From Candidatus Krumholzibacteriota bacterium (GTDB lineage: Bacteria; Krumholzibacteriota; Krumholzibacteriia; JAJRXK01): DNA of 64,000 nt. Shown here one piece after another: positions 6,064-61,164 of this stretch. Location of the stretch: the NCBI GenBank assembly GCA_029262065.1, contig JAJDAC010000018.1, positions 62,001 to 126,000 of the forward strand, in the 5' to 3' direction. Positions within the stretch are counted from its first letter, which is position 1. Each line of letters starts with the position of its first letter. The notes beneath the pieces are model-generated. The model made no database searches. It saw nothing but the letters and a program-made list of their open reading frames with translations, and was not told the origin of the DNA. The position numbers and the translations under genes are program-made.

Positions 6064-6600
6064 CTAGAGAGACTTCAACGCGGCCAGCACCACGGCCGGG
6101 TCTGGATGATCGCCGGCGTAGCCGCTGAGACTGACGTACGGCACCGAGCCGTCGGGTCGAATCACGAACACGCCGCCCAACTGAAGGGCGTCGCCCTTGA
6201 TTTCCGTCTGCTTGAAACCACGGGCCATGACCCCAATTGCCTTCAGGAATACGACGGGGTTCAACACGCGCCAGATACTGCGCTTGGCACCCACCGCGGC
6301 ATAGGCTGCTCTCGACGGGTCGGTTACGACCGGCGAGTCCATATCGAGCTCGTCCACCAGCCAGCGGGCATGCTCAACGGTTCCGTTGCCAAGCACGATC
6401 AACTCGGCCCCGGCCGCTCGAATGTCGCCAATCTTGTCACGCAACTGCGTGACCTGCTCTCGGCAGAACATTCAGCCAAAGTGTCGAATCATGGCCAGAA
6501 TGACGGGCTGATCCTGCCAAAACTCGCCTAGGCGCACGGTTTGGCCGTCCGATCGCAGCACCGACATCTGGCTCAGCGTTTTCGTGTCGACGGAATTCAT
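6064..6600 (-). CDS. Candidate selenoprotein: peroxiredoxin-like (AhpC/TSA_2, PRXL2) protein with in-frame UGA
   Basis: Read through one TGA (6472-6474), the frame encodes 178 residues of the AhpC/TSA-2 thioredoxin-fold family. It begins [12 protein letters not shown], then [11 protein letters not shown]43-MFC46-REQV, and ends in [25 protein letters not shown]. The family normally has HFGCxFCRE, so the UGA falls exactly on the first redox cysteine, giving a U-x-x-C centre. The ATG overlaps the stop of the preceding methyltransferase as ATGA, the same coupling as elsewhere in this operon, so the start is firm. A 7-bp hairpin follows the UGA at SECIS distance. The protein probably reduces peroxides or disulfides made during lipid modification. 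The alternatives are a nonsense mutation or a sequencing error. No Sec-insertion genes are in the window. Confidence 0.82.
6436..6453 (-). promoter_or_regulatory. SECIS-like hairpin downstream of the in-frame UGA
   Basis: In the mRNA, GUCACGC-AGUU-GCGUGAC forms a perfect 7-bp stem with a four-base loop. The stem starts 18 bases after the UGA and the loop starts 25 bases after it. A G is among the first two loop bases. These features fit the bacterial SECIS consensus as I recall it: loop 16-37 bases from the UGA, a short stem, and an early loop G that contacts SelB. A second, weaker CUGC/GCAG hairpin lies between the UGA and this stem. Confidence 0.65.
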
Positions 6601-7637
6601 TTCGCCTCGACTTTCGGGGCAAAGAGGTAGTGAGACACTATCCACTCACGGCCCTGCCGATAGTTGAAGAGTTCGGCGCAGGCCATGAAGAACATACGCC
6701 AACGCGAGCGCCAACGCACAACCTGGCTCGGACCGTAGATACGACCGAGAGCGTCGTCGACCTCGTCCCGCCGGAAATCCATGTTCGCCAGCCACGCCTC
6801 GGCCGTGCGTCCGTAGTGCGTTCCGTCGACCTGCCAACGCTGTTGTAGCGTTAGATCCCGCTGGAAGTGCTCCAACAGATCATCCGAAGGCATGATGCCA
6901 CCAGTAAAGAAGTGGCGCGCCATCCAGTCTCCGGGCCCATCGGCGTCGAACAGGTAGGCGTGCTCCCGATGACTGAAAATGTGTACGAAGAGCCGCCCAT
7001 CCGGATGCAGGTGGCTCGCCACCTTCGATAGCAGCGCTTCGTAGTTTCGCATGTGCTCGAACATCTCCACCGAAACGATTCGGTCGAACCGATGCCCCAG
7101 GTCCAACTGATTCACATCGCAGGTTACCACCCGCAGGTTGCCGATCTTGCGGCGACGTGCCTCCCACTCGATGAACGAACGCTGGCCTTGGGAATTGCTG
7201 ACGGCAACGACCTGGGCGCGCGGAAACCGCTCGCAAGCCCACAACGAAAACGAGCCCCAGCCACAACCCAGATCCAGGATCTCCATTCCGTCTTCGACCT
7301 GAGCTCGCTGGGCGTACAACTCGAGCATTCGCTGCTCGGCCTCGTCGAGATTGGCCACATCGGTATCCCAATAGGAGCCGCTGTACTTGAGATGCTTACC
7401 CAGAACCTGGCGATAGAACTCAGCCGACACCTCGTAGTGCTGCTCGTTGGCAGCATCGGTATGAACGGCCACCGGCGATTCCCGGAGGCTCTGCACCAGG
7501 CCCAGAAACCGCTCTCTCCGCGCCTCATCGGTGAGCGATCCAAACCCCGCCAGCCGATCGGCCAGCCGACGGCGAATCCCGGCCCGAATGAGAGCATCGG
7601 GAACCAGTCCCCGCTCGAGCAACCCCTCGTACCACAT
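6597..7637 (-). CDS. SAM-dependent methyltransferase, cyclopropane-fatty-acid-synthase-like
   Basis: The 346-residue product has the CFA/mycolic-acid methyltransferase core: [24 protein letters not shown], motif [35 protein letters not shown] and [15 protein letters not shown]. It lacks the extra N-terminal lipid-binding domain of true CFA synthases. The acidic residue of MFEH and the His of FVHIFSH are both present. ATG 7637 overlaps the DUF1295 stop (ATGA). Related proteins methylate acyl chains or other lipid-like substrates, and the exact substrate is unknown. It is the second methyltransferase of this operon and directly precedes the candidate selenoprotein, with a 4-base overlap. Confidence 0.88.
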
Positions 7638-8431
7638 CAGTCGTTGCCCTCCTTGGGAAACCACGGGAAGAACGGACTGGTCGTGCGTTGATACTCGCGG
7701 TACGCATCTCCCCGACTCTTGAGCGACTGAGCCTCGGTAGGCGGAATACCCGTGACACGAAGAATGAAGAACAGAATCAACGCGGGGCCAGTCCAGGCCA
7801 ACAGCCCGATCAAGCCCGACGTGGCGCACAACGCAAAGCCCAGCCAGATGACCCACTCGAAGAAATAGTTCGGGTGGCGCGAATATCGCCAAAGGCCAAC
7901 GTTGCAAACGCGTCCGCGACTGTCAGCCTGCGCCTTGAATGCGGAGAGTTGGCGGTCGGCAATGGACTCGCCAACCAGGCCCACCAACCACAGGCCGGCT
8001 CCCACCCACTCGGTGATCTGCAAACCAGACTGCGTTCGCGACGCCGTGAGCAGAAACGGAAGCGAAAGGATTGCCGCCAGCAGAGCCTGAGCCTGAAAGA
8101 ACACCAGAAAGAACCGCTGTTCGTGCGGGCTCCAGTTCGTTCGCAAGGTCACGTATCGACCTTCTTCCGGACGCCCCAGGATACGATCGACCAACAGATG
8201 CCACGCCAGACGCAACCCCCAGAAGCCCGCGGTGACCCCAGCCAACACACGGTGCTCCACGCCACCGTTGGAAGCCAACGCATAGAACACCCCCAACGCC
8301 CCAAGCGCGGTGGCCCAGCCCACGTCGACAATGCCCGCATTACCCGTACGCAGTTGTAGTGCCCACAGGGCCAACATGAACCCCGCGGCTCCCAGCCAGC
8401 CCCATAACAACAATAGCCAATCAACACTCAT
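7637..8431 (-). CDS. DUF1295 membrane protein (steroid 5-alpha-reductase-like)
   Basis: A 264-residue polytopic membrane protein with about six to seven hydrophobic helices. The C-terminal half has the DUF1295/steroid-reductase signature: [32 protein letters not shown] and a terminal [20 protein letters not shown]. Relatives reduce double bonds or methylate lipid substrates in the membrane. Which reaction applies here is not known. ATG 8431 overlaps the cfa stop, and its own stop overlaps the next start. Such tight coupling in a lipid operon supports a role on the same acyl chains. Confidence 0.88.
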
Positions 8432-9669
8432 TGCCGTATCCCCGCTGGCCGAACTTCTTTGTACAGGAGCAATTGGGAAACATTGATCCGCTCCTGGCGA
8501 AACCCGCCCTCACAGTAGGAAAAGTAGAACTCCCACAAACGCAGGAATCGATCATCGAATCCCAATTGACGCGCCGCCGATGCGTTCCGCAACAGATTCT
8601 CGCGCCAATGTCGCAGGGTTTGCGCGTAGTGCTGAGCAATGTCTTCCGCGTGTGAAACGCTCAGATTCGTCGCGCGGTGCAACGAGCGAGAAATCTCGGC
8701 CCGCGAGGGGATGCACGACCCTGGGAAGATGTACTTCTTGATGACGTCCACGGTCCGACGCGCCGGGTGGAATGCATCATCGGCAATGGTGATGGACTGC
8801 AAAAGCATCTGACCACCCGGCCTCAATCGCTCCGAACAAACGCCAAAGAACGTATCGAAGTACTCGTATCCCACGGCCTCGATCATCTCGATCGAAACCA
8901 GTTTGTCGTATTGACCAGTGAGGTCTCGATAGTCCTGCATGATGATGGACACCCGGTCCTCCAACCCCGCGGCTCGCACTCGAGCAAGCGCATAGTCATA
9001 CTGCGCACGTGAGATGGTAGTACCCGTAACGCGGCAGCCGTACTCACGAGCAGCGTGTATGGCGAACCCACCCCAACCACAGCCGATTTCCAACACGTGA
9101 TCGTCGGGTCCCAGATTCAATTTGCGGCATACGACGTCAATTTTTTCACTGGAGGCTTCTTCCAACGTGGCGCGCTCGCTGGGAAATATTCCGCAGGAAT
9201 AGGCCATCGTCTTGTCGAGAAACAACTCGAAGAACTCGTTGCCCAGATCGTAGTGCGCGTGGATGTTCCTGCGTGATCCCTGGCGGGTGTTCTTGCGCCA
9301 AGCGTGCGAGAGGCGTTGCATCGGCGCCGCCAAGCGACCCCAACCGCCCCGCATCCGATCCAGAAGCGGACCGTTGGCGCTCATGATCCCAAACAACGAA
9401 CTGAGGTCGTCACATGTCCAGAGGGAATCAAAATACGACTCGGCCGCGCCGATACTGCCACGCAACAACACCGCGGGGTAGAACGCCGGATCTCTTATTT
9501 CCACGATCACCGGCGGCACAGTAGCGCCCGCCTCCGACCCAAACCAGGTTTCGCGCCCGTCTTCTCGAAAACACAACTGACCACCACGCAGACCGAACAT
9601 CAACGACACCAAAGCTCGGCGAGCCAAACGCTGGGACAACGACCCTCGATCAGGCACTGGGAACCTCAC
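8428..9669 (-). CDS. cfa: Cyclopropane-fatty-acyl-phospholipid synthase family methyltransferase
   Basis: The 413-residue product has full CFA synthase architecture: an N-terminal lipid-binding region (ESYFDSLWTCDDLSSLF), then HAHYDLGNEFFELFLD, motif I HVLEIGCGWGGFAIHAA (residues 191-207), SIEMIEAVGYEYFDTFF and KKYIFPGSCIPS. It would transfer a methyl group from SAM to unsaturated acyl chains of membrane phospholipids. The Glu of the MFEHVG motif is kept (Glu264), but the His of the E. coli LLHTIG motif is Gln here (Gln291) and the following Gly is Thr. This suggests the UfaM-like or other non-canonical branch rather than classic ring formation. Its start lies 20 bases inside the DUF1365 gene. 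Confidence 0.9.
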   Translation of the reverse strand: MRFPVPDRGSLSQRLARRALVSLMFGLRGGQLCFREDGRETWFGSEAGATVPPVIVEIRDPAFYPAVLLRGSIGAAESYFDSLWTCDDLSSLFGIMSANGPLLDRMRGGWGRLAAPMQRLSHAWRKNTRQGSRRNIHAHYDLGNEFFELFLDKTMAYSCGIFPSERATLEEASSEKIDVVCRKLNLGPDDHVLEIGCGWGGFAIHAAREYGCRVTGTTISRAQYDYALARVRAAGLEDRVSIIMQDYRDLTGQYDKLVSIEMIEAVGYEYFDTFFGVCSERLRPGGQMLLQSITIADDAFHPARRTVDVIKKYIFPGSCIPSRAEISRSLHRATNLSVSHAEDIAQHYAQTLRHWRENLLRNASAARQLGFDDRFLRLWEFYFSYCEGGFRQERINVSQLLLYKEVRPAGIRQ

Positions 9670-10429
9670 GCTCTCTCTTGGATGGATGGGAATAGAACGG
9701 ACAACGTTTGAGCCACAGTCGAAACGCCTGGAAATGAATGCCCCAAATGATTCTTGCGGTAAGAAAGGGGTACCGGAACAGAACCCGTCGAAGCGCTCCG
9801 GAACCTATCTCCGCTCGCTTCATGGTCAAACCCACCGAAAAGAAACCCTGCCTCTGCCGGGAATTCTGCATTCGCACACGAAGTTGATCGGCCGGTTCGT
9901 TCAACGCCCAGTCGTACTCGCAGTCCATATCGATGAAGGGCGAAACGTGGAATTCCTTGTCGAAGCGAAACTGCAAACCGCTCGCGTTCGCGCTACACGA
10001 ACGGCTCAGCACGTATGCGTGCCGCTCGCGCCAGGGCGTATTGGTGATTTCCGCCACCACGGTTTCCACGCGCTCGCCCCTTGGATCGAAGCAGTAGTAG
10101 AAACTCACGGGGTTGAAAGAGTATCCGAAGTACCGAAGGTTGGTGAGCATTCGGATCGGGCCGCTCGGGCGCTCAAAGCCGCGTTCGGCGACCAGGTCTC
10201 GTACCGCCTCATCCAATGGCACCTTGTGCGGGCCCAGGAAATCACTTCTTCGGAACCAGGCCCAACCCGGTCGCTCCAACGACCAGAAACGTGACTTCGC
10301 GAAGACCCGCGAGAGCTCGTCAAGATCAAGGTAGACCATGAACAACGACACGTTGAACTCATGCTCCACCGGACTCATGCGCCGATGGAAGACGTTCCCC
10401 TCGTAAAGACAGCTGGCCAGTGGGCTCAT
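9650..10429 (-). CDS. DUF1365 protein
   Basis: The product has 259 residues and matches DUF1365: YEGNVFHRRMSPVEHEF at the start, FLGPHKVPLDEAVRDLV, RMLTNLRYFGYSFNPVSFYYCFD, EITNTPWRERHAYVL and FRFDKEFHVSPFIDMDCEYDW. The family's reaction is not established. It almost always sits between a COG2907 flavoprotein and a cfa-like gene, exactly as here, so it probably acts in the same acyl modification. ATG 10429 overlaps the flavoprotein stop as ATGA. Confidence 0.9.
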   Translation of the reverse strand: MSPLASCLYEGNVFHRRMSPVEHEFNVSLFMVYLDLDELSRVFAKSRFWSLERPGWAWFRRSDFLGPHKVPLDEAVRDLVAERGFERPSGPIRMLTNLRYFGYSFNPVSFYYCFDPRGERVETVVAEITNTPWRERHAYVLSRSCSANASGLQFRFDKEFHVSPFIDMDCEYDWALNEPADQLRVRMQNSRQRQGFFSVGLTMKRAEIGSGALRRVLFRYPFLTARIIWGIHFQAFRLWLKRCPFYSHPSKREREVPSA

Positions 10430-11664
10430 GTAAGGCTCCGCTCGAATCGACGACAAACGGCCAAGGCACTCTTGACCCCGTCTTCGTGGAAGCCGAAGCC
10501 CCAATAGGCACCGCAGAACGAAATTGGACCCTGGTTCACTTCGTCCTGCCGTGCCTGAGCCGCCACGGACTCACGAGTGTACACGGGATGCTCGTACACC
10601 AGATCACGAATCACGTGCTCGGGAGCCACGTCCCCGTTCGAGTTCAGACTCACCAGATACTCATCCTGGGTGTCCAGACTCTGCAGCCGATTCATCGAGT
10701 ACGTCACCGAACTCTGGTCGTGCGGGGACGAAGGGATGCGGTAGTTCCAACTCGCCCACGCCCGTTGGCGTCGGGGCAGAAGGGAAGTGTCCGTATGCAA
10801 ACGCACGGCGTTGGGTTGATAGCGGGTTGCCCCCAGGACTTCGCGTTCGCGCGCGGTCGCGTCGTCCAACATGGCCAACGACTGATTGCTGTGGGTGGCC
10901 AGAATGGCATGATCGAAATCGATCGATCCAGATACGTCCGTAGCCACCCTGACTCCGTTTTCGATTCGTCGTACGGAGCGAACTGGGGTCGAAAGGTGAA
11001 TTCGTTTGCGAAACGGTCGCGTCAGCGCATCGACGTAACGGGAAGACCCGCCTTGTACGACTCGCCACTGCGGGCGACCCCTGATTTGCAGCATGTCGTG
11101 GTTGGACATGAATTCCACCAGATAGCGAATGGGAAACTCCCGAACCTCGTCTGGGGGCAAGGACCACAGCGCCCCGGTCATGGGGAAAAGATGATGCTCC
11201 GCGAACGAACTGGAATAGCCTCGGCGATCCAGGAACTCGCCGATGCTCAGATCGTCGCCTTGAAGAAGACCCGGCGCCTCTTCAAAGAAACGCAGAATCT
11301 CGCGCAGCATCCGATAGTGGCCGGGACGCAGGAGGTTTCGACGCTGCGCGAAAAAGCTGCTGAGGGAAGAGCCCCGATATTCGAGTCCCGTGCGGTCGCA
11401 CTTCACACCAAAGCTCATGTCGCTGGGCTGGCTGGGAACTCCCAGTTGGTCCAGCAACCGACAAAAATTGGGGTATGTCTTCGGGTTGAACACAATGAAT
11501 CCAGTATCTACTTGGTGTTCACCATCGTGGGCCTGGACGGCTACCGTATTCGTATGACCGCCTACGTAGTCATTCGCCTCGAACATGATGATCTCGTGCT
11601 GTTCGCGAAGCAGATGGGCACACACCAGGCCCGAAATTCCCGAACCTATGATCGCGATTCGCAC
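10426..11664 (-). CDS. NAD(P)/FAD-dependent amine-oxidase-like protein (COG2907)
   Basis: A 412-residue flavoprotein with an N-terminal FAD dinucleotide-binding motif (RIAIIGSGISGLVCAHLL) and ribose-binding Glu in MFEANDYVGGHT, then VDTGFIVFN, TGLEYRGSSL, VVQGGSSRYVDAL and a C-terminal SFCGAYWGFGFHEDGV FAD-closing motif. COG2907 proteins accompany cfa-like and DUF1365 genes and are candidate desaturases or oxidases of acyl chains. A homologue is part of the singlet-oxygen regulon in Rhodobacter sphaeroides. The start is GTG 11664, five bases after the symporter stop. Confidence 0.9.
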   Translation of the reverse strand: MRIAIIGSGISGLVCAHLLREQHEIIMFEANDYVGGHTNTVAVQAHDGEHQVDTGFIVFNPKTYPNFCRLLDQLGVPSQPSDMSFGVKCDRTGLEYRGSSLSSFFAQRRNLLRPGHYRMLREILRFFEEAPGLLQGDDLSIGEFLDRRGYSSSFAEHHLFPMTGALWSLPPDEVREFPIRYLVEFMSNHDMLQIRGRPQWRVVQGGSSRYVDALTRPFRKRIHLSTPVRSVRRIENGVRVATDVSGSIDFDHAILATHSNQSLAMLDDATAREREVLGATRYQPNAVRLHTDTSLLPRRQRAWASWNYRIPSSPHDQSSVTYSMNRLQSLDTQDEYLVSLNSNGDVAPEHVIRDLVYEHPVYTRESVAAQARQDEVNQGPISFCGAYWGFGFHEDGVKSALAVCRRFERSLT

Positions 11665-11669
11665 GGGAA

Positions 11670-13085
11670 CTACCTACGGTCAACGAGGCGCCGACGGCGC
11701 CGGACCAGCAGTGCCTGGACTCGCCGATGACGTTCGTCGGTAAGAGGCGCGAAGAACAAGAAGCTACCGCCCAGAAGAAGAAAGCCTCCAACCCCGGGAC
11801 CGAACAACCAGGCCAATCGTTGCGATACCTCAGCACTCTGGGCGCCCAGCGATTCGTCAAACCCGATGGCCGATAGCATCAGGCCCGCCAAGACCAGACC
11901 GAAGGCACGAGAGAGTTTTGTACCCATCTTCCAGACTCCGAAGTACAGGCCCTCGCGGTGTTTCCCGGTCTTCAATTCGTCATGGTCAACCACATCGGTC
12001 ACCATGGATTCCAGCAGAATGAGAGCCCCACCCAGCAGACCACCGATCACCGCTATTGCCGTGGCGCCACCGCGTTGCCCCGGCCCCAGGAACAAGTAGG
12101 CCGCCGAAACCAGGATGCCCATGCCAAATACACCCACCATGGCTGGCCGCCGCTTCCCCCACCGTTGGCTGATCCAGATCCACGCCGGAATCGAGGCCAG
12201 GATGAAGATGAAGAAGGGCATCAGGACCCAGAGGATCGTCTCAGACTCGGGTATCTGTAGACGGTATTCGTAGAAGTACAGCGCAATGGATGCATTGAGG
12301 GCCCGGCCCACACCAGCTACCACGAACGCGGCCAACAACGGCAGGAAAATGCGGTTTCGAAGCACTCCGAGCTGGGATCGCAGCAGCGTGGAGACTCTGA
12401 GTGGCGGTCGCCGCACCGCCGGGGGCTCGGGACGATCGAGGCCGCGGGTACTTCGCACGGTGATCCAGGCGGTGAGTAGAATGGGACCCGCCAACAGGAA
12501 GCTGGTGAGGCTACGCGATACGGCCACGCTTGCCGAACTGGCCTCATCCCCCACCCATCGCAGCACCATAGCGGGCAGCAGAGTGCCCACCATCAGACCC
12601 GCGGTGGTGAACAATCTACGGTATCCGAATATCTGGGTTCGCTCGTCCCGGTCGAAACTCATCTCGCCGCCCAGCGCGATATGGGGCACCGAAATGACCG
12701 TCATGGCGGTGGTGAGGGCCAGGTAACTCACCGTAAGGAACGCGAACTTGAACAAGGACGAGTCCAGCGAAGGCGGGTTGTAGATCAGGATGAGCGCGGC
12801 GGCCAGGGCGAAGGCCCCGGGAAGGATGTAGGGACGACGCCGACCGGCCGGGGAGCGCGTGCGGTCTGAGATCTCTCCCATGATGGGATCGCTCACCGCA
12901 TCCCAGATCATCGCCAGTGCCAATGCCGCCGCGGTCAGATGGGGAGCGAGTCCCACCGTCACATTGTAGAACTTCAGCAGGTACAGCTCGACGAGTACCT
13001 CGACGGCCACAAGTCCCAATTCGGCCGAGCCGTATCCTAGCTTCGTCGACCAGGAGAGCGACTGCCTTGTGCTGGAAAGCAGCAT
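11670..13085 (-). CDS. GPH-type (MelB-like) major facilitator transporter
   Basis: A 471-residue, twelve-helix protein of the glycoside-pentoside-hexuronide:cation symporter family. It has WDAVSDPIMGEISDRTRSPAGRRRPY (the loop 2-3 signature), VPHIALGGEMSFDRDERTQ and, late, a VDHDELKTGKHREG motif like those of MelB relatives. Members of this family also occur in cfa/DUF1365/flavoprotein operons, where they may move lipids rather than sugars; that is inference. The start is uncertain: ATG 13085 gives the usual family length, while the open frame extends to 13220 with ATGs at 13133 and beyond. No ribosome site favours either. It is the first gene of the seven-gene operon. Confidence 0.85.
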   Translation of the reverse strand: MLLSSTRQSLSWSTKLGYGSAELGLVAVEVLVELYLLKFYNVTVGLAPHLTAAALALAMIWDAVSDPIMGEISDRTRSPAGRRRPYILPGAFALAAALILIYNPPSLDSSLFKFAFLTVSYLALTTAMTVISVPHIALGGEMSFDRDERTQIFGYRRLFTTAGLMVGTLLPAMVLRWVGDEASSASVAVSRSLTSFLLAGPILLTAWITVRSTRGLDRPEPPAVRRPPLRVSTLLRSQLGVLRNRIFLPLLAAFVVAGVGRALNASIALYFYEYRLQIPESETILWVLMPFFIFILASIPAWIWISQRWGKRRPAMVGVFGMGILVSAAYLFLGPGQRGGATAIAVIGGLLGGALILLESMVTDVVDHDELKTGKHREGLYFGVWKMGTKLSRAFGLVLAGLMLSAIGFDESLGAQSAEVSQRLAWLFGPGVGGFLLLGGSFLFFAPLTDERHRRVQALLVRRRRRLVDRR

Positions 13086-13283
13086 GGGCGCAGTGTACAG
13101 GACGCCAGCCAATGTGGCGCGGGCTAACCCCATTGAGCCCGTTTGACGGGACCCTTCCGCCAGTAGGACTCCCCCCGATCCCCATGCGGGCCCACTCGCA
13201 GTAGCATCCTCTGGCATCACCGGAGCGCGAGAGAGCCCCTCCTCTCGGCCGCCCTCGTAACCACGCTACCCGGAGATGAAGCC

Positions 13284-14692: not shown

Positions 14693-14917
14693 TCAGGAAG
14701 AGTGACTTGAGAGATGGATCTGTTGTCGTAGGCGAACCGGCAAGGCAACCGGTCGAACGAACGCCAATTGGATGGCGGCGGCGGCCAGATCAAACTGGTC
14801 GGCATCCCAGTCGGGGTGGTCCCGAATGATTGCGTCCAGTTCACGGCCCTGCTCGTCGGTGCAATCCGCCGTGGCACGCAGTATGAGAAGATCGTGGAAA
14901 CGCTCACGCAGCGTCAC
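14693..14917 (-). CDS. Minimal anti-sigma-like protein
   Basis: A 74-residue soluble protein whose start (GTG) overlaps the sigma stop as GTGA. The sequence LILRATADCTDEQGRELDAIIRDHP...DQFDLAAAAIQLAF resembles the N-terminal anti-sigma helices of RskA/ECF-cognate anti-sigma factors. The zinc-binding HxxxCxxC, transmembrane helix and C-terminal sensor domain are all missing. The region after its TGA stop does not continue the protein in any frame. It could be a complete stand-alone anti-sigma domain or a truncated one. Confidence in function rests mainly on position behind the ECF sigma gene. Confidence 0.55.
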   Translation of the reverse strand: MTLRERFHDLLILRATADCTDEQGRELDAIIRDHPDWDADQFDLAAAAIQLAFVRPVALPVRLRQQIHLSSHSS

Positions 14918-15519
14918 TCTACCCCACCACCTTCTATGCCCTTCGGGGCCGATGAAGCCAACGACTCGCGTACGACCGTAAGCCCGCGTCGTATGTACGA
15001 CTTCACCGTTCCCAGCGGCAATCTCATGCGCTCGGAGATTTCACCGTGGGACATGCCTTCCACGACGGAAAGAATGACCACGCGGCGTTGTTCGGGTTTC
15101 AGCTCTTTCAGAGCCCGCATCGCCAAAGATGCTTCTGCACTGCGTTCGATGCGCTCGTGCTCATCGCTGGAAAAGTCCATTTCCTCGGGAATTGCCATGG
15201 TCCGGGGCCTTCTGTCCCGGGCCCGAAGGCGGTCTATCATGCGCCGTCGGGTGACCATGGCTACGAACGCCACCTCAGAAGACCGTCCAGGTTCGAAGCG
15301 GCTTGCGTTCTTCCAGAGATCGAGGAACACCTCCTGCACCGCGTCTTCGGCGTCGGCCGGCGACGGGACCATGCGCCTTACGATTGACCATACGAGGTTG
15401 CCGTACTTGTCGATGCACGCCTTTACCGCGCCATGATCGCCATTTGCGATCCGAAGCAGAAAGGAGTCCTCGGCTCCTACGGGATCAAGCTCTCGCGGGT
15501 CAGCCACTACTGATCCCAA
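14914..15519 (-). CDS. ECF RNA polymerase sigma factor
   Basis: The 201-residue product has region 2 (IDKYGNLVWSIVRRMV..DAEDAVQEVFLDLWKNASRF) and region 4 (LKPEQRRVVILSVVEGMSHGEISERMRLPLGTVKSYIRRGLTVV). It directs polymerase to a stress regulon. It overlaps the B12-binding protein gene upstream by 20 bases if TTG 15519 is used; GTG 15507 is an alternative start. Translational coupling with a B12 photoreceptor-like gene and a small anti-sigma gene recalls light-responsive sigma systems such as LitS or CarQ, although the target promoters cannot be named from this window. Confidence 0.88.
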   Translation of the reverse strand: MGSVVADPRELDPVGAEDSFLLRIANGDHGAVKACIDKYGNLVWSIVRRMVPSPADAEDAVQEVFLDLWKNASRFEPGRSSEVAFVAMVTRRRMIDRLRARDRRPRTMAIPEEMDFSSDEHERIERSAEASLAMRALKELKPEQRRVVILSVVEGMSHGEISERMRLPLGTVKSYIRRGLTVVRESLASSAPKGIEGGGVE

Positions 15520-16633
15520 GCAACCGCGCGCCCTCGGGTACGGCGTCCGACACGCTCGCCGCGAACCCGTCTGCCCCTACTCGACGCCACACAGTGGGGT
15601 CGGCCTGAAACGCGAGCCCCCCCACGAGCACCTTGATACCCGGTGAATGCGTGCGAACCTCAGCAATCGCATCCCTCAACGCCGTGAGATGGGTCACGAG
15701 CGTGGCCGAGAGCAACAACAGGTCGGCATCAAAGCCTCGGACGGCCAAGGTGAGGTTCGTGGCAGGCATATGTCCGCCCAGGCTCAGTGACCGCCACCCA
15801 GCCATTGCGAAGAGATCCATGATCATGCGAATTCCCAACTCATGCTGATCGTCACCCACCGCCGAGCCCACCACCAACTTGTCGATGGTCTCCTGGGGGC
15901 GAACTCGTTCTGCGAGCAAGGTCAGCAACGAGTGGGTGGCCGCCGTAACCACGTGCTCTTCGTGGATACCGAGCTGACCCAGATGCCATAGTCGTCCTAC
16001 TTCCCGCTGCGCGGGCGCGATTACTTCGAAGTAGGCGGACCTGACATCCAAGCCGTTCTCGGTGGCCTGAAGAATCTGGTCCATCGCCCGCCGGGTGTCG
16101 CCTGAAAGGCACGCCTCGATGTAAGTCAGCGCCATGCGGCCATGCTGGCTGGAAGGGTCGAGACCGGGGGTGGTTGCGAGTGGTGCCTCAAACACTTCGA
16201 GCCCACGCGCGCAGTACTCAGGAATGGGATCACGGGCGTGCTCAGGAAGGTCGTGCGTCAGCACGTCAGTCAAGCACTCCAGACTGGCTCGCAAGTCGTC
16301 CTGGGGAAGATCGCGAGCGGCGAACGACTCGCGCGCCCATTGAACCGAAGCCACGAACAAGTCGGGGGATTGCATTTCCACGGCCACGGCCAGCTCGCGA
16401 ACCCGGACCGTGAGATTGGCTTTCCAGGCGCTGAAGGCATCGGAGCCGAAACGTTGAGCCGCCTCAGGATGCTTTTCGCAGAATTGGCTGGCCGCAAAAC
16501 CCGCGTAGGCGCCGGCACTGCCGTTGAGCAAGCTGGCCGCGAGGAGTCCGTTGTCCGACACGCCATTGCCTCCTGGGCGTTGGGAGTTGCCCGGGAAGGA
16601 TACCCCAGCCGAAGCGGTCTGACCAAAGGGCAT
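15500..16633 (-). CDS. Free-standing cobalamin-binding (CarH-like sensor) protein
   Basis: A protein of 377 residues with no DNA-binding domain. Residues about 155-245 form the helical cap domain and 250-375 the Rossmann B12 domain. The cap has W216-x9-E226-H227, the Wx9EH signature of light-sensing CarH/LitR proteins. The Rossmann part has D262-Q-H264-E-L-G267, the DxHxxG cobalamin motif with His264 as likely lower ligand. The N-terminal 150 residues resemble a second helical region. It resembles AerR/PpaA-type B12 proteins that signal by protein contact. Coupling with the ECF sigma gene suggests it controls that sigma factor or its anti-sigma protein in response to light. Confidence 0.8.
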   Translation of the reverse strand: MPFGQTASAGVSFPGNSQRPGGNGVSDNGLLAASLLNGSAGAYAGFAASQFCEKHPEAAQRFGSDAFSAWKANLTVRVRELAVAVEMQSPDLFVASVQWARESFAARDLPQDDLRASLECLTDVLTHDLPEHARDPIPEYCARGLEVFEAPLATTPGLDPSSQHGRMALTYIEACLSGDTRRAMDQILQATENGLDVRSAYFEVIAPAQREVGRLWHLGQLGIHEEHVVTAATHSLLTLLAERVRPQETIDKLVVGSAVGDDQHELGIRMIMDLFAMAGWRSLSLGGHMPATNLTLAVRGFDADLLLLSATLVTHLTALRDAIAEVRTHSPGIKVLVGGLAFQADPTVWRRVGADGFAASVSDAVPEGARLLGISSG

Positions 16634-16665: not shown

Positions 16666-17817
16666 CTAATCAGCCGGGAGCAGCACCCAGAGCTCGGGAC
16701 GACCACAGTTGCAATGCACCGCGCGGCCCAGGAGCCCAAAGCACGCCCACGACAGGAACAACGCGGTGCGAGCCGCATGCCAAGCACCCGGAGAGGCCTT
16801 GCGGCCAGCTGCCCATTGCGATTGGCGCCGAGAAAGCGAAGGAACTGGGTGAAAAATCGCTTCGATCGCCCTTGACCGCCGTGGCTCGTCATCCTGCGCG
16901 GTGTCGAGACGCTTCAATACCCGGTACAGAACGCGCGGCGAAATGCCGTGGTCCAAGGCGAACCGGTCGGCGGCGAACACGGCCGAGCGGCTCAGGGAGG
17001 GCAGCACAAGCGCGCCAAGGAAGGACCACAACGTGAACAGAAGAGCGGTGGAAACAAGTCCCGCCACCGTCGCCAAGGAAACGGTTTCCCACCACGCGGC
17101 CAGGGCGAATCCAAGGGTATTCCAAACCAGCGCCAACCAGAGGCCACGCGTACGCGCTCCGGCCTTCACGACTCCGACTCGACGAACGATTTCAGATGTC
17201 AGCTCTTCCGGCCCTAGCCATTCCAACCACTGGCGTGGAAGGATGAGCCGTTCCCGACCCGGGAACCCCGTCCAGCCTCCCGTGAATCCCGGATCGGTGT
17301 TGTCGAGAACTTCGATGGACACCGAGTCGATTCCCATCTGCGCCAGATTGGCTTTCATGGGTTCGACGTTGAAGGGCACGCGACGAATTCGACCCACTCG
17401 ACGCGCCAGCCAGGACTGCAGTGCCAGCAGAATCAGGCTGGCCCCAACCACGGCCGCTACCGCGGCAGGCTCGCCGAATTGCCGAGCGACGCGCATGACC
17501 ACAAGACCCAGGGCCAGAACCCAAACGCCCTGGAAGAGGATGCCGCCAATCCACGCCACCGCAAACTCGGTCGCGCGACCTGTGCTTCGACCGTACCGTT
17601 GAGGAAGAACCAGACCACCCAACACGTCGAAGGGCAGCGAAATTCCCAGGTACACGCCGAACGCCACAACCAACCAGCGAAGGTCGCTCGCCGGCGATGC
17701 GGCGTTGGTGGGTAGATGATTCTTGGGCAGATCGAATATCAGGGCCAACGTCGAGAGCACCACGATAGTACCGACGCTGGTGATGCCCAGCCACAACCTG
17801 GCACGAGCGTAGGTCAA
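16666..17817 (-). CDS. M48-peptidase-like membrane protein lacking the zinc motif
   Basis: The 383-residue product has about five to six hydrophobic helices, laid out like M48 (HtpX/Ste24) proteases: helices at 8-28, 47-70 and 85-108, then a soluble domain, two more helices at about 222-275, and RFALDHGI. The segment that should carry HExxH reads LTSEIVRRVGV (residues 206-216), so both histidines are absent and the protein cannot bind zinc in the usual way. It may be an inactive scaffold. The C-terminus has HCNCGRPELW. TTG 17817 overlaps the VOC stop. Confidence 0.6.
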   Translation of the reverse strand: MTYARARLWLGITSVGTIVVLSTLALIFDLPKNHLPTNAASPASDLRWLVVAFGVYLGISLPFDVLGGLVLPQRYGRSTGRATEFAVAWIGGILFQGVWVLALGLVVMRVARQFGEPAAVAAVVGASLILLALQSWLARRVGRIRRVPFNVEPMKANLAQMGIDSVSIEVLDNTDPGFTGGWTGFPGRERLILPRQWLEWLGPEELTSEIVRRVGVVKAGARTRGLWLALVWNTLGFALAAWWETVSLATVAGLVSTALLFTLWSFLGALVLPSLSRSAVFAADRFALDHGISPRVLYRVLKRLDTAQDDEPRRSRAIEAIFHPVPSLSRRQSQWAAGRKASPGAWHAARTALFLSWACFGLLGRAVHCNCGRPELWVLLPAD

Positions 17818-18158
17818 AGCTCTGCACCTTCCGCGTCGGTGGGATCCAGCAATTCCACGAAGTTGCCATCGACGTCGGGAACGTAAGTCGAGCGAGTGCC
17901 GTCGCGATGAGGAACGAGAGCGCCGAAATCGGCGGCCCGGGGGTGAACGAAACCCAGGTGCGGGGGATGTTGCTCGGGTAGCACCAGGGCAAGCTGCACA
18001 TTCTCGAACTGCAGGAGAGCCCAGCTCGAATCCTCATATGCGACGGCACAAGCGAACACGTTGCGGTACCAACGCACGGCGGCGGGAATATCGGCCACGG
18101 CGATCGCCACGTGGTGGAGACGATCGAGGGGCGGGCTTCCGGGCACTGGTCTGGTCAC
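17814..18158 (-). CDS. VOC (glyoxalase/bleomycin-resistance) family protein
   Basis: The 114-residue product forms one VOC domain: DRLHHVAIAVADIPAAVRWYRNVF, AYEDSSWALLQFENVQLALV, PPHLGFVHP and YVPDVDGNFVELLDP. It retains His in LHHVAI and Glu in FVELLDP as possible metal ligands. VOC proteins isomerise, cleave or sequester small molecules, and no substrate can be assigned. It is the first gene of the minus-strand run VOC, M48-like, B12 protein, sigma, anti-sigma. Confidence 0.85.
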   Translation of the reverse strand: MTRPVPGSPPLDRLHHVAIAVADIPAAVRWYRNVFACAVAYEDSSWALLQFENVQLALVLPEQHPPHLGFVHPRAADFGALVPHRDGTRSTYVPDVDGNFVELLDPTDAEGAEL

Positions 18159-18280: not shown

Positions 18281-19318
18281 ATGGCCAAGACTTCGCACCG
18301 CGTCGCAATCGTAGGGGCCGGACTGGCTGGACTGGCCGCCGGAAGGAGGCTCCGGGACAGCGGATGGGACGTTACTGTTTTCGACAAGGGCCGCGGTCCG
18401 GGAGGTCGGTCTTCATTGCGTCGCCGCGATGGTTTCGAGTTCGACCACGGAGCCCAATATTTCACGGCCCGTAGTGCTCAGTTCCTCGGGCTGGTCGAAA
18501 AATGGCTCGACGACGGAATCGTGGACCACTGGAATCCCCGCTTGTGGGTATTCGAGCAGCAGTCTTGCTCTCCTTCGGACTCGTCCACAAAGCGCTACGT
18601 CGGAGTGCCCGCCATGAACGTCCTTGGACGATCTCTGAGCGAGGGCCTTGATGTGCGCCAGGCCATCCGCGTGGGCGCGATCACGGCTTCTTCTACTACT
18701 GGCAACGCCCGATGGTCGGTGTCGGACGACGAACAACGGCTACTGGGGCACTTCGATACAGTGCTCGTAACCGCACCGCCTGCGCAGGCCGCACCACTGC
18801 TGCAACCAGCCAAGGGACTGGCTTCAGAGATTGGCGCGACCCCGATGGTTCCGTGTTGGGCAGTGCTGGTGGGATTCGATTCCGCGTTGGACGTGGAGCT
18901 CGACGCTGCGTTCGTAAACCATGGACCCATTCGTTGGATTGCCCGCAACACTTCGAAACCGCTACGCAGTGGCGGCGAGGCGTGGGTCATCCACGCCAGC
19001 GATGTCTGGTCGATCCAGAACCAGGAGCGTCAGCGCGATGCGGTGGTCGAACTGCTTTGCCGTGAACTCGAGAGGCTGATGGCGCGCAGCGGGCAGGAAG
19101 AAATTCCCGGAATCAAATCGGTTCATGCCCACCTGTGGCGCTACGCCCGGCCGCGCGACGAATGCTCGGTAGGCTGCATGTTCGACGACGATCTGCAACT
19201 GGGCGCCGCGGGGGACTGGTGCATGGGCGGTCGTATCGAAGGCGCCTACCTGAGCGGGTGTGCTCTGGCCGAACGAGTGATCGCCTCTACCAGTGGCCCG
19301 TACCTGGCTCGCCCTTGA
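18281..19318 (+). CDS. Renalase-like NAD(P)/FAD-dependent oxidoreductase
   Basis: The 345-residue product has VAIVGAGLAGLAAGRRL as its FAD-binding motif, then VFDKGRGPGGRSS, FDHGAQYF and a C-terminal LGAAGDWCMGGRIEGAYLSGCALAERV, matching the COG3380/renalase group. Such enzymes oxidise reduced nicotinamide derivatives or related small molecules. They often occur in light- or singlet-oxygen-induced clusters, which fits this location. Its 3' end overlaps the DUF427 gene on the other strand by 32 bases. Confidence 0.88.
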   Translation: MAKTSHRVAIVGAGLAGLAAGRRLRDSGWDVTVFDKGRGPGGRSSLRRRDGFEFDHGAQYFTARSAQFLGLVEKWLDDGIVDHWNPRLWVFEQQSCSPSDSSTKRYVGVPAMNVLGRSLSEGLDVRQAIRVGAITASSTTGNARWSVSDDEQRLLGHFDTVLVTAPPAQAAPLLQPAKGLASEIGATPMVPCWAVLVGFDSALDVELDAAFVNHGPIRWIARNTSKPLRSGGEAWVIHASDVWSIQNQERQRDAVVELLCRELERLMARSGQEEIPGIKSVHAHLWRYARPRDECSVGCMFDDDLQLGAAGDWCMGGRIEGAYLSGCALAERVIASTSGPYLARP

Positions 19319-19865
19319 ACGGACCACACACGTCAGAGGTAACCCAGCCTCCGTAGAAACCACCGGGTTGTGGTCTGACTCGTTCATCATCTACGGTACA
19401 CTCGAGTACGGCGGGATAGAACGAAACGTAGCCGGTCAAGGCTTCGTACGGAGCAAAAGGAGAAACATATCCCCAGGCCGCACGTTCGATGCGTTGCGCT
19501 GGTGACGACACTACATCGTAGTAGTGGGCTTCACCTTTCCACTCGCAACGGGAAACGCCCTCGACCCGAACCAAACGACTCATGTCAATATCGGCTTCAG
19601 GCAAATAGAAGGTAGGCGGGCTGGCCGTCTCCAACATGCGGATTGAACGGACGGACCGGGCAATCTCGTGTTGGCCAGATCGCACCACGACCAGTCTTTC
19701 ATCGCCCACCAACAACGGCGGACGCGGATAGTCCCATACGCTCTCGCGACCCTTCGTGGGCTCCTCTGCAAATGCTGGGCGCTCGCCCCCCACGTGGGCC
19801 CAACCCGAGCGACCGCGCCGGGCCCAACCAGGAAGGGGCGAAGGTTCGTGTCTGCGAGTACGCAT
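19287..19865 (-). CDS. DUF427 domain protein
   Basis: The 192-residue product contains the DUF427 fold: YPRPPLLVGDERLVVVRSG, SPPTFYLPEADID, CEWKGEAHYYDVV and AAWGYVSPFAPYEALTGYVSFYP. The function is unknown, but DUF427 genes recur in photo-oxidative stress clusters. ATG 19865 lies four bases after the CIA30 gene stop, so it is the last member of a four-gene minus-strand operon. Confidence 0.87.
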   Translation of the reverse strand: MRTRRHEPSPLPGWARRGRSGWAHVGGERPAFAEEPTKGRESVWDYPRPPLLVGDERLVVVRSGQHEIARSVRSIRMLETASPPTFYLPEADIDMSRLVRVEGVSRCEWKGEAHYYDVVSSPAQRIERAAWGYVSPFAPYEALTGYVSFYPAVLECTVDDERVRPQPGGFYGGWVTSDVCGPFKGEPGTGHW

Positions 19866-19869
19866 GTGA

Positions 19870-20472
19870 TCAGGACCCGGGAACGGGATCGATGTACGCA
19901 CGCACGAAGTCGATCTCCAGCGAAAAATCACCTGGCTGCTTGTCGGCCAGGAGTAATCCAACCTGGGCGATGTCGGCCGTGTCCAACGACTCCGCTTCGC
20001 TCAGAATGCGCCCTCGAAAGGTGGGCAGGAACTCCCCGAACGGAATCTGGATGGTAGCCCAGACGCCGTCCAGGGTGTTGAACATGGCACGATAGGCGAC
20101 ACCATCCATCCCCTCGTCGGTCCGCAAACGCAACTGGTACTCGCGACCATCGCCCCGTACCCGAATCTCCAAGCCGTTGGCCGATGAAAAATCCCGGGAC
20201 TTGAGCAAGGCACGCACCGAGGCAAATCCACCGTTGTTCTCGAGCGAGAGCTGCCCCGTGAAACGCCCCGTGTTTTCCCCGGTTTGGCGAATTGTACTCT
20301 GGGAGCGGCCGCCCATGACACCATCGTTCACGACTATCCACTCGGCCTGATCGGTTTCGTCGAAGTCGACAATCGGAATGTGGTCCAATCGAATTCCTCC
20401 GGATACAGCGGCGGATGACAGGATCGAGCACGTAGCCGCGATCCAAACTACTTGGTTGATGGTAGATCTCAT
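19870..20472 (-). CDS. Exported CIA30-family protein
   Basis: A 200-residue protein with a signal peptide (MRSTINQVVWIAATCSILSSAAVSG) and a CIA30/NADH:ubiquinone-intermediate-associated jelly-roll domain: WIVVNDGVMGGRSQSTI, GQLSLENNGGFASVRA and a FRGRIL segment near the end. Bacterial CIA30 proteins have no assigned enzyme activity; a galactose-binding-like fold is expected. AGGAGG sits ahead of ATG 20472. Cleavage after Ala-Val-Ser-Gly would place it in the periplasm. Confidence 0.87.
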   Translation of the reverse strand: MRSTINQVVWIAATCSILSSAAVSGGIRLDHIPIVDFDETDQAEWIVVNDGVMGGRSQSTIRQTGENTGRFTGQLSLENNGGFASVRALLKSRDFSSANGLEIRVRGDGREYQLRLRTDEGMDGVAYRAMFNTLDGVWATIQIPFGEFLPTFRGRILSEAESLDTADIAQVGLLLADKQPGDFSLEIDFVRAYIDPVPGS

Positions 20473-21040: not shown

Positions 21041-21225
21041 GGAATTCCTCCTATGGAGAGTCTGAGTTGATGTTCACAAGACGATTCGTTCACTGGTGGC
21101 GTATTGGATCCAAACTATCTACAAAAACTATACAGATATCATTCAATCGTACTTAACTCGTTATTTCTCAATATGCATCCCGCAAATAACCTTGACAGAA
21201 CTTAGTCACTGACTACCTTTTGGAC
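21041..21225. promoter_or_regulatory. AT-rich divergent promoter/operator region of the B12 regulator
   Basis: Strikingly AT-rich against the surrounding DNA. On the plus strand TTGACA (21192-21197) is followed by the perfect 6-1-6 palindrome TAGTCA-C-TGACTA (21203-21215) and a weak -10 (TACCTT) just before ATG 21226. There is no Shine-Dalgarno sequence, so a leaderless message is possible. An operator between -35 and -10 is the MerR-family arrangement. Direct repeats AAACTATCT and AAACTATAC (near 21112 and 21125) could serve the minus-strand operon. Confidence 0.55.
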
Positions 21226-22155
21226 ATGGAGACTACAGCATCACACCCCATTCGCGTCGTCGCCTCCCGCACTGGCCTGAGCGCCAATCGCATTCGCATG
21301 TGGGAGAAGCGATACGCCGCCGTGGTTCCGCATCGGACCGCCACGAAGCGTCGCCTGTACACCGACCACGATGTGGAAAGGCTGGGCCTCTTGCGGCGCG
21401 CCACTGATCGCGACCGTACGATCGGTCAGGTAGTGTCGCTTTCGAATGAGGAACTGCGGTCCATCATCGCCGGCGATCGGATCGGCAGCTGGCCGAGTGA
21501 AACGACGACTTCAGAGCTGGAAGAGGCGCGGGCCATTCGCACCTGGTGCACACGTGCCATTTTCGATCTCGATGAAGAGCGTCTAAGGCAATTGCTGGCG
21601 CGGGCCGAGGTCAGCCTGACTGGCGAGGTGCTGATCGAACATCTGGTAGTGCCTTTGATGACCGAAATTGGAGAACGGTGGCGCGACGGAACGCTGCAGA
21701 TCATGCACGAACATATGGCTTCGGCATTGGTGCGATCGCTTCTTTCGCGACTCACGCAGATCCATCGGCCAATCGCGGGCGCACCACGTCTCGTTGTAGC
21801 GACTCCGGTCGAGCAACTTCACGAACTAGGAGCATTGGTCGTATCGGCCACCGCAGCCTCGGAAGGCTGGCGAACCCTGTATCTTGGTACAAGCGTTCCA
21901 GCGCGAGAAATTGCTGACGCAGCCGAGCAGGTGAAAGCCAATGCCGTGGCCCTGAGCCTGTCCTACAACGCATCACTCGACGGCCTTCTGCATGAAGTGC
22001 GGGACCTCAGAGACATCCTGCCCGGATCCGTCGAGCTCTACGTCGGCGGAGGAATCACGGCCGATGTGCGCATTGCCCTCGACCACGCCAACATCCAAAT
22101 CCTGGGCAGCCTCGCCAATCTGCGCGAGCGCCTGAGAGGAGTGCGGTTCAAGTGA
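21226..22155 (+). CDS. MerR-type transcriptional regulator with cobalamin photoreceptor domain (CarH/LitR-like)
   Basis: The 309-residue product has an N-terminal MerR helix-turn-helix (IRVVASRTGLSANRIRMWEKRY, then RLYTDHDVERL), a helical cap (100-175) and a B12 Rossmann domain (185-305). The cap carries W152-x9-E162-H163, the signature of light-sensing CarH. The cobalamin loop reads QLHELG with His199 as likely axial ligand; the Asp of the usual DxHxxG is Gln. CarH/LitR proteins bind DNA as adenosylcobalamin-loaded tetramers in the dark and fall apart in light. The operator-like palindrome just upstream suggests autoregulation. A TTG six bases upstream was rejected in favour of ATG. Confidence 0.87.
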   Translation: METTASHPIRVVASRTGLSANRIRMWEKRYAAVVPHRTATKRRLYTDHDVERLGLLRRATDRDRTIGQVVSLSNEELRSIIAGDRIGSWPSETTTSELEEARAIRTWCTRAIFDLDEERLRQLLARAEVSLTGEVLIEHLVVPLMTEIGERWRDGTLQIMHEHMASALVRSLLSRLTQIHRPIAGAPRLVVATPVEQLHELGALVVSATAASEGWRTLYLGTSVPAREIADAAEQVKANAVALSLSYNASLDGLLHEVRDLRDILPGSVELYVGGGITADVRIALDHANIQILGSLANLRERLRGVRFK

Positions 22156-22577
22156 TCCTACTTTCACACGCCCTTGCAACTCTGCTGATGTGCGGCGTCA
22201 TCTGGTATGTGCAGTTGGTGCACTACCCGTTGTTCGACATGGTCGGACGCCGCGGCTTCGAACAATATGAACGCGCGCATGCGCAACGCACCACCTGGGT
22301 CGTGGCCCCACTCATGTTGCTGGAACTCGCCACAGGCCTGGCCTTGGCCGCAAGTTCTACCGTAGACACGTGGAAGAGCGTCACTGGGCTCATCGTGCTC
22401 GCAACCATCTGGATAGCCACCGCCTTCTGGCAGGTGCCCTATCATCGCGCGCTGCAGATCGGTTTCGACAAGCATATCCATCGCGCTCTCGTGCGCTCCA
22501 ACTGGTTTCGAACGGGTGCGTGGAGCCTGCGGGCCGTACTGGTACTCACCATGTTGGCGAGTAGCGTTGGATCCTAG
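22152..22577 (+). CDS. Small integral membrane protein
   Basis: A protein of 141 residues with four hydrophobic segments: roughly 3-20, 47-68, 76-95 and 118-138. It has YVQLVHYPLF near the N-terminus and FWQVPYHRALQIGFDKHIHRALVRSNWFRT. The spaced His residues could hold heme or metal, but this is only a possibility. The GTG start overlaps the regulator stop as GTGA, so it is translationally coupled to the light-sensor gene. I do not recognise a named family with confidence. Confidence 0.75.
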   Translation: MILLSHALATLLMCGVIWYVQLVHYPLFDMVGRRGFEQYERAHAQRTTWVVAPLMLLELATGLALAASSTVDTWKSVTGLIVLATIWIATAFWQVPYHRALQIGFDKHIHRALVRSNWFRTGAWSLRAVLVLTMLASSVGS

Positions 22578-22608
22578 TCTTCCCCCTTCACACCTCCTGG
22601 AGAGCATC

Positions 22609-60865: not shown

Positions 60866-61164
60866 CATTTGGATTCTCCGTTGAAGTGGTTTCTCTTTGC
60901 GGCCGTTGGGCCAGTGTCGCAAAGGATTTCGTCCAGCACCCCGGGTTGGATTCAACGAAATGCGATATTCCTTCGCACTTCGCACACCACAACCCTGCGT
61001 GATTTCCCCCACTTCGCCACGGGCCGGCAGACCATCGTTCCTCGTGAAAGCGCACGAATACCGTAGAATACGCGGTTTACGGCTGGAACAGCGATTGCAC
61101 CTTCCCGGGGCAATGGGTCCGCATTCAGCTGTCCTTCCAACTTCGTGGAATGGGAACCAGAACA
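60866..61164. other. Divergent gene-free spacer
   Basis: About 300 bases separating the fasciclin (minus) and prepilin (plus) starts. It must hold both promoters. No convincing -35/-10 pair, RNA or gene is visible to me. Confidence 0.4.

Follow-up and report, generated by a model that had tools for sequence, protein, structure and literature searches.

We analysed a 64,000-nucleotide stretch (the window) of a contig of a Candidatus Krumholzibacteriota bacterium, on whose minus strand three overlapping genes encode, in this order, a protein with a globin in front of a B12-binding half (the globin-B12 protein), a SigK-type extracytoplasmic function (ECF) sigma factor, and a 74-residue protein that resembles the anti-sigma domain (ASD) of RskA (Table 1). 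An earlier sequence-only reading of this DNA had described the first of these as a free-standing CarH-type B12 sensor coupled to the sigma factor. The stop codon of the globin-B12 gene (15500-15502) overlaps the sigma open reading frame (ORF), as that reading had noted, by 20 nt if the sigma factor starts at TTG or by 8 nt if it starts at GTG, and 4 nt at the sigma stop are shared with the 74-codon ORF; because of these overlaps, the three genes are probably translationally coupled.

Table 1. Positions of the features discussed in the text, numbered from the first letter of the window
Feature	Position	Strand	Basis or remark
Globin-B12 (photoglobin-CBD) ORF	15500..16633	-	377 codons; Pfam, AlphaFold
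Probable start of globin-B12 ORF	GTG 16561 (residue 25)	-	353-aa product
Phycobiliprotein-like globin domain, N-terminal	16163..16558	-	about residues 26-157; AlphaFold, structural matches
CarH-type B12 half	15560..16123	-	four-helix B12-binding_2 (171-240) and Rossmann B12-binding (254-357)
ECF sigma factor, SigK/RskA type	14914..15519	-	201 codons; start TTG 15519 or GTG 15507; Pfam r2/r4
74-aa ASD-only protein	14693..14917	-	RskA N-terminus; HMM match, RskA paralogue match
Promoter-like TGAATCC-N16-CGAA	18210..18236	-	exact match in the 18158/18281 gap, directed at the gene string from VOC to anti-sigma
VOC/glyoxalase-family gene	17814..18158	-	PF00903; first gene of probable five-gene operon
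Gene with weak Peptidase_M48_N similarity	16666..17817	-	PF16491, E 0.0032, 17.8 bits vs cut-off 27; second operon gene
Linked cluster	6597..13220	-	Pfam
GPH symporter	11670-13220	-	linked cluster, Pfam
Amine oxidase	10426-11664	-	linked cluster, Pfam
DUF1365	9650-10504	-	linked cluster, Pfam
CFA/CMAS	8428-9669	-	linked cluster, Pfam
DUF1295	7637-8431	-	linked cluster, Pfam
Second CMAS	6597-7907	-	linked cluster, Pfam

Domain structure and chromophores of the globin-B12 protein

The protein likely begins at the internal GTG of Table 1, because the sequence AGGAGG (16574-16569) precedes that codon with a spacing of 7 nt, the alignment with relatives agrees with this start, and residues 1-22 of the ORF are modelled as disordered (predicted local distance difference test, pLDDT, <50 in AlphaFold). 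A Pfam scan of the 377-codon ORF found PF02607 (residues 171-240, E 1.8e-10), PF02310 (254-357, E 5.1e-14) and no DNA-binding family, in agreement with the sequence-only reading. Both motifs to which that reading had pointed, W216-x9-E226-H227 and D262-Q-H264-E-L-G267, are there, and D262xH264 matches the E/DxH motif of photocobilins. Light-responsive cobalamin-binding domains (CBDs) are described by the signature GxxW, EH, GxxH and GxxxP (PMC11796333); the window protein has the first, second and fourth of these elements (G213-W216, E226H227 and G286-P290) and reads GxxxH at the third (G260-DDQ-H264), where 47 of 64 aligned rows carry the glycine at position 261 that gives GxxH.

This alignment of full-length relatives holds the window and 63 further rows, taken from the 80 loci that an alignment-based genome scan fetched; left out were partial rows (L066, L077, L112 and L125), Paenibacillus near-copies and some further rows. 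The residues that touch the adenosyl group and the cobalt in light-responsive CBDs, W216, E226 and H264 here, do not vary across the 64 rows, and H227 is kept in 63. A scan of close-relative contigs with the single globin-B12 protein returned no match, and a class-wide survey around locus L106 found L106 itself only (one of 9 genomes).

Photocobilin structures were among the best Protein Data Bank matches of the globin-B12 protein in a phmmer search, with a weak second stretch in which residues 77-128 matched the globin of SasPcob. The full-length AlphaFold model, built on the 64-row alignment, reached a pLDDT of 91.6 and a predicted template modelling score (pTM) of 0.88. Its B12 half came closest to photocobilins (Z 27.1 to 8j2y and 26.8 to 8j2w) and scored lower against the CarH-like CBD 8jbs (23.4), TtCarH (about 22) and AerR (7te2, 21.7), and residues 24-150 matched allophycocyanin with Z 16.9 (root-mean-square deviation 2.3, 127 aligned). 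Modelled alone, the globin domain gave a pLDDT of 96.5. Its structural matches were led by allophycocyanin (9i1r, Z 17.0), smURFP, ApcE and photocobilins (SasPcob globin, Z 15.6), with a best Foldseek E of 1.5e-3. Because the B12 half is nearest to photocobilins and the globin to allophycocyanin and photocobilins, we identify the window protein, on its predicted fold and sequence matches, as a photoglobin-B12 (photocobilin-type) protein with the globin first and no output domain of its own. A bare B12 domain was rejected, as residues about 25-150 fold as a globin in the model; the label "free-standing CarH-type" thus gives way to a fused globin and to photocobilins as nearest solved structures (Z 27).

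Like the photocobilins SasPcob and AbDPcob (8J2W, 8J2X and 8J2Y), the protein combines a CarH-type CBD with a phycobiliprotein-like globin and carries the W-x-EH and E/DxH motifs; unlike them, it has the globin at the N-terminus, Asn in place of Asp270, and an ECF sigma factor with a mini anti-sigma as partner where they have a diguanylate cyclase. An adenosylcobalamin (AdoCbl) domain at either end has already been described for photocobilins (PMC10979010). Photoglobins/BBAG-2 globins likewise associate a bilin-type globin with B12-binding domains (PMC10151467), whereas the window protein lacks the bilin-contact Asp and its genome has no detected heme oxygenase. With CarH and LitR it shares an AdoCbl domain with W, E, H and H contacts; their MerR-type DNA-binding domain is missing, and a globin stands there instead. 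The sequence-only reading had placed the protein closer to the antirepressors AerR and PpaA. AerR does resemble the B12 half in structure (Z 21.7), and both would act on a partner through a B12 fold without a DNA-binding domain. AerR is nevertheless a weaker structural match than the photocobilins, and the window protein differs in its globin and its sigma/anti-sigma neighbours. No PpsR/CrtJ partner of the AerR/PpaA type was seen, although no search aimed at PpsR was made.

A canonical MerR-B12 regulator of the CarH/LitR type lies 4.6 kb from the globin-B12 gene (21220..22155, plus strand; MerR_1, B12-binding_2 and B12-binding, with W-x9-EH and QLHELG) and is followed by a short-chain dehydrogenase/reductase (SDR) gene (22516-23283), giving two B12 photoreceptor candidates at one locus. 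Genome G138 appears to hold both domain orders, as L043:10048-11241 looks B12-first (SasPcob-like) and L042, whose globin-B12 gene adjoins a GGDEF gene, looks globin-first.

The biliverdin contact Asp270 of SasPcob corresponds to residue 73 of the window protein, with a numbering offset of 6 derived from the ligand His108 in the phmmer alignment. This residue is Asp in 28 of the 64 rows and His, Asn, Tyr or others in the remaining 36, the window having Asn, and the ring-D contact Trp296 corresponds to W99, invariant in all 64. In AbPcob, His at the Asp270 site weakens biliverdin binding (PMC10979010). On the tree, Asp and non-Asp rows part at a deep node (SH-aLRT 100), with one exception, the non-Asp row L095, which falls on the Asp side. 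A kinase-family gene lies just downstream in 24/28 Asp rows and 0/36 non-Asp rows (recomputed from coordinates), and an ABM-family gene upstream in 12/28 and 0/36, respectively.

The Asp clade spans Paenibacillus to a contig of a Lokiarchaeota metagenome-assembled genome (MAG; L096), and its globin-B12 genes (L083-L130, also L040 and L041) mostly sit just before a histidine kinase gene (for example L084:9021-10739 and L114:9064-10269). ABM-family genes lie directly upstream of Asp-type genes in L083, L085, L086, L087, L089, L097, L102, L110, L111, L113, L116, L119 and L127; the four tested (L083, L087, L111 and L119) contain PF03992, the ABM family, which we take to include IsdG-type heme oxygenases. 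These genes are possibly dedicated biliverdin makers for true photocobilins.

The heme oxygenase family PF01126 was absent from the window's own genome; across relatives it scored above cut-off in 2/30 non-Asp genomes (plus one weak match) and 5/19 others, L113 being left out. The cobalamin adenosyltransferase family PF01923 is present in the window's genome. Since the Asp at residue 73 is absent, PF01126 is missing from the genome and an adenosyltransferase is present, AdoCbl alone is probably the working chromophore of the globin-B12 protein, whose globin domain is probably structural or a docking surface. AdoCbl photoreception by this protein, judged by homology, is likely.

Sigma factor and anti-sigma partners

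The sigma factor gave its best NCBIfam scores to PRK12519 and SigK, both below cut-offs (SigK, 118 bits vs cut-off 226); its ORF holds a single Cys, and a paralogue on contig C30 of the same genome, 55% identical, is paired with an RskA protein. The 74-residue protein has no Pfam or NCBIfam match, no membrane helix and no RskA_C, which the C30 RskA paralogue does have. Its first ~50 residues nevertheless match that paralogue (L048:5935-6732, 265 aa; 45% over 51 aa), and it matches a hidden Markov model (HMM) of eight RskA N-termini with E 7.7e-16 (Z=1000), which fits the suggestion of the sequence-only reading that it is a sigma/anti-sigma partner. A ChrR-type anti-sigma, the first guess because of the CFA-type cluster nearby, was dropped, as homologues are of the RskA type. 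RskA residues 1-85/86 alone inhibit SigK, and in species with truncated RskA the presumed signal-sensing part is gone (PMC7509140). Set beside SigK-RskA systems, including the truncated RskA of Nocardia (PMC7509140), the window has a sigma factor that resembles the family and a small protein that matches the RskA N-terminus; it differs in the missing membrane/RskA_C part, in the globin-B12 gene within the operon and in the single-Cys sigma ORF.

For sigma linkage, we tabulated 64 loci of the non-Asp group, drawn from the 80 fetched relatives and from further whole-genome relatives, and counted a locus as linked when a sigma factor of the window's type (BLAST E <1e-25) lay within 3 kb of the B12 gene. 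The tabulated loci are not all clean: L077 is truncated with D at the site, L095 falls in the Asp clade, L112 has no residue at site 73, L058/L059 and L078/L079 are pairs of near-copies that stem from two MAGs, and L163/L164 and L170 are repeat copies in genomes already counted. Sigma is linked in 14 of the 64 (the window, L058, L059, L060, L062, L072, L074, L082, L106, L162, L169, L171, L178 and L181), which besides the window belong to Gammaproteobacteria, Acidobacteria and Planctomycetota; with about one gene of this type in a 3-Mb genome, we estimate that far fewer than one linked locus would be expected by chance. The gene order is B12-sigma-ASD in the window and L171, B12-sigma in L058 and L059, sigma-RskA-B12 in L060 and L106, divergent in L074, and convergent in L072, L162, L169, L178 and L181. 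As the sigma-linked label needs 7 changes on the tree, this order has been remade or lost several times.

At the level of whole genomes, the sigma factor (E up to 1e-30) is present in 38 of the 39 genomes with a non-Asp B12 gene as compared to 4/48 others, namely 1/18 Asp-clade genomes, 0/10 class relatives of the window genome and, in the order of G153, 3/20 genomes without a B12 match (Fisher 6e-19, a value that ignores kinship and is to be taken loosely). Adjacency, co-occurrence and a common upstream motif (see below) together uphold the coupling to the sigma factor that the sequence-only reading had claimed, and make functional coupling of the globin-B12 protein to this sigma factor highly likely. 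Three globin-B12 copies occur in genome G217, of the order of G153 (L162, L163 and L164), one of which alone adjoins a sigma gene and a mini anti-sigma. The carriers include a named isolate, Thioalkalivibrio sp. XN8 (L055).

Because the convergent loci left room for a gene like the mini anti-sigma, the gaps after sigma were examined. They hold ASD-only ORFs of 84-88 codons with a 4-nt overlap in L162, L181, L169 and L171, and L074 has one of 103 codons that overlaps sigma by 8 nt. All six small proteins, the window's included, match the HMM of eight full-length RskA N-termini (E 8e-21 to 4e-11, Z=1000), which is better evidence than a four-row alignment of the anti-sigma domains (20-41% identity to the window protein). 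The 14 linked sigmas thus comprise six with an ASD-only partner, three with a full RskA (L060, L072 and L106) and five with none seen. Around 22 unlinked sigma loci we found 14 RskA-type partners (one running off its contig), two ASD-only proteins, five cases with none and one at a contig end; of 41 sigma matches, 30 had loci of their own, and further ones were included if they fell within another locus. Among sigmas with an anti-sigma, ASD-only partners therefore make up 6/9 of the B12-linked and 2/16 of the unlinked (Fisher p 0.0099, with the entries 6/3 and 2/14 taken from a manual reading of the loci).

Promoter-like motif and neighbouring genes

The promoter-like site of Table 1 stands before the VOC gene, which overlaps the M48_N-like gene by 4 nt at the head of the probable operon. 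A scan of 38 non-Asp loci (537,404 bases) gave 23 sites of the motif TGAATC(C/T)-N16-CGAA, against a mean of 0.4 and a maximum of 2 in 20 shuffle runs, and the remaining 42 loci (609,770 bases) gave 0. The motif lies on the same strand within -300 to +30 of the start of the B12 match in 12 of the 38, some of them without sigma nearby. A dyad count had found it in 10 upstream regions vs at most 5 in five shuffles; because those regions were hand-picked, the whole-locus scan is the fairer test. Copies also lie close upstream of fasciclin genes (L060, L062, where the gene is fasciclin by family clustering, L169 and L078) and of an SDR and a photolyase-like gene (L060). Further copies stand near the start of DUF4397 proteins (L169:6003-7553, L178:2379-3929 and L181:6843-8234), which are likely further members of the sigma regulon. 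In the window, a second exact site (60928-60954) falls inside ORFs and was set aside, and no convincing motif precedes the GPH-symporter operon.

In 13/64 loci, window included, two or more of the linked cluster's amine oxidase, DUF1365, CFA/CMAS and DUF1295 genes lie beside the B12 gene, a count that omits the symporter and draws on locus flanks of differing length. In R. sphaeroides, photo-oxidative stress raises CFA-type genes together with those for a GPH symporter, an SDR and a fasciclin protein, and the rpoE-chrR locus of R. capsulatus carries a SigK/RskA-like pair (PMC7074977); in Pseudomonas, LitR-linked light-responsive regions hold UfaM, photolyase and SDR genes (PMC9758184). Because the linked CFA-type and symporter genes recall these gene sets, a photo-oxidative role is likely by analogy. 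The window and its relatives thus recall the Rhodobacter RpoE-ChrR response (PMC7074977) in their genes of the CFA type and in those for a GPH symporter, an SDR and fasciclin, and the R. capsulatus version is SigK/RskA-like; the window differs in that its anti-sigma is not of the ChrR type and a candidate B12 photoreceptor is built in.

A DUF427 gene adjoins the globin-B12 gene in five gammaproteobacterial loci (L052:9046-9561, L057, L064, L068 and L129), and the window has one at 19287-19961, about 2.7 kb upstream of its globin-B12 gene. Two further ECF-type sigma genes of the window (37730-38371, plus strand; 57686-58240, minus strand) are distant from the B12-linked one.

A candidate light switch, its rivals and its meaning

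We propose that the three soluble proteins form a light-operated ECF switch, made of an AdoCbl photoreceptor with a bilin-type globin repurposed for docking, a SigK-type sigma factor and a stripped RskA whose lost membrane sensor the photoreceptor replaces, and that this switch serves photo-oxidative defence in several phyla; we put the probability of this reading as a whole at roughly 0.4. In the dark, the 74-residue protein would hold the sigma factor. Light would break the Co-C bond of AdoCbl and alter the shape or oligomer state of the sensor, and the lit sensor would bind the anti-sigma (or the sigma factor), so that sigma would be freed to transcribe its own operon, sensor included, from TGAATCC-N16-CGAA and to turn on photo-oxidative-stress genes. 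That the sensor binds AdoCbl and responds to light, that the proteins bind one another, which way control runs, that the motif serves as a promoter and what the regulon does are inferred. The odds are even that a photocobilin-type AdoCbl sensor relieves the mini anti-sigma in this way, frees the sigma factor and switches on a photo-oxidative-stress regulon; that control of sigma runs through an action of the globin-B12 protein on the mini anti-sigma is likewise about an even bet. Standalone photocobilins can work via protein-protein contacts (PMC10979010).

Several observations weigh against such a switch. The sigma factor is not found within 3 kb in 50 of the 64 loci, and in G008 and G003, which hold the closest full-length relatives within the class of the window genome, the B12 gene and the sigma gene stand apart. 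Three linked loci keep a full RskA, and no recognisable anti-sigma stands beside the linked sigmas of L058 (at a contig end), L059, L062, L082 and L178. The exact motif is not enriched in the window's own genome (4 sites vs 1 in a reversed control), its count in the window is not above chance, and no copy turned up ahead of those CFA cluster genes that were examined. Its copies in the B12 intergenic gaps of L169, L171 and L181 point away from the B12 gene, and a motif upstream of the B12 gene suits a mere sigma target equally with a sensor.

That the globin-B12 protein is such a target, a light or oxidative-stress effector or a feedback element, while the signal reaches sigma otherwise, is the main rival, unlikely as we hold it to be. 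It would account for the motif directly upstream of the B12 gene in 12/38 non-Asp loci, some without sigma nearby, for the separation of the two genes in most carriers, and for the effector-like look of the other motif-bearing genes (fasciclin, DUF4397, SDR and photolyase-like). It leaves unexplained why the B12 half keeps every sensor contact with no catalytic partner, and why the window gene is probably translationally coupled to sigma and anti-sigma; moreover, the ASD-only anti-sigmas have no sensing part of their own, so that some cytosolic input is needed. Less probable again is that the protein binds sigma in the dark as a light-sensitive (co-)anti-sigma, the ASD protein being auxiliary. 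The B12-sigma operon of L059 (near-copy L058, at a contig end), with no anti-sigma ORF after sigma, and the absence of one in L178 would suit this idea, whereas six linked loci keep an ASD-only partner and three a full RskA, and we know of no sigma-binding motif in the photoglobin-B12 fold.

Of similarly low standing is the proposal that the protein senses cobalamin level or redox instead of light, as put forward for some PpaA/AerR proteins. AerR aligns to the B12 half, and redox or light have been described as inducers of PpaA/AerR proteins (PMC10734443); nevertheless, the contacts of light-responsive CBDs (W216, E226 and H264) are invariant, and the closest structures are photocobilins, which are light-responsive. 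Slightly further down we would place a working dual-chromophore photocobilin, also binding biliverdin and responding to red light: the globin fold and W99 are kept, but Asn73 replaces the bilin Asp at a site where His weakens biliverdin binding in AbPcob (PMC10979010), the genome has no PF01126 gene, and upstream ABM-family genes are confined to Asp rows, so that this possibility was judged unlikely. Hardly credible, finally, is a corrinoid carrier of a methyltransferase, for which NCBIfam ranks MtgC_2 slightly above CarH (54.9 vs 49.0 bits, both far below cut-offs); the W-x9-EH signature, the photocobilin structure match and the lack of a corrinoid methyltransferase among the neighbours examined speak against it, and it was rejected on the structure match and the sub-cut-off scores.

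The literature searched showed no link of a B12/globin photoreceptor to an ECF sigma factor or RskA, a search that did not cover the neighbourhood tables of the original photoglobin paper. What is new here is a sensor of the photocobilin type that lacks the bilin-contact Asp and has a new candidate output, a co-encoded ECF sigma factor. The photocobilin authors call the function of standalone photocobilins "less clear" (PMC10979010); the non-Asp clade offers them a concrete partner along with candidates for mechanism, promoter and regulon. In this family a sigma partner accompanies proteins without the bilin Asp and a histidine kinase those that have it, a division that amounts to a natural experiment on the change of output of a two-chromophore sensor. 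If the proposed switch is true, alternative-sigma transcription initiation would join the outputs of B12 photoreceptors, soluble truncated RskA proteins without a sensor of their own would be explained, and a compact green-light switch would be to hand. The keeping of this partnership in distant bacteria points to a light-switched stress response.

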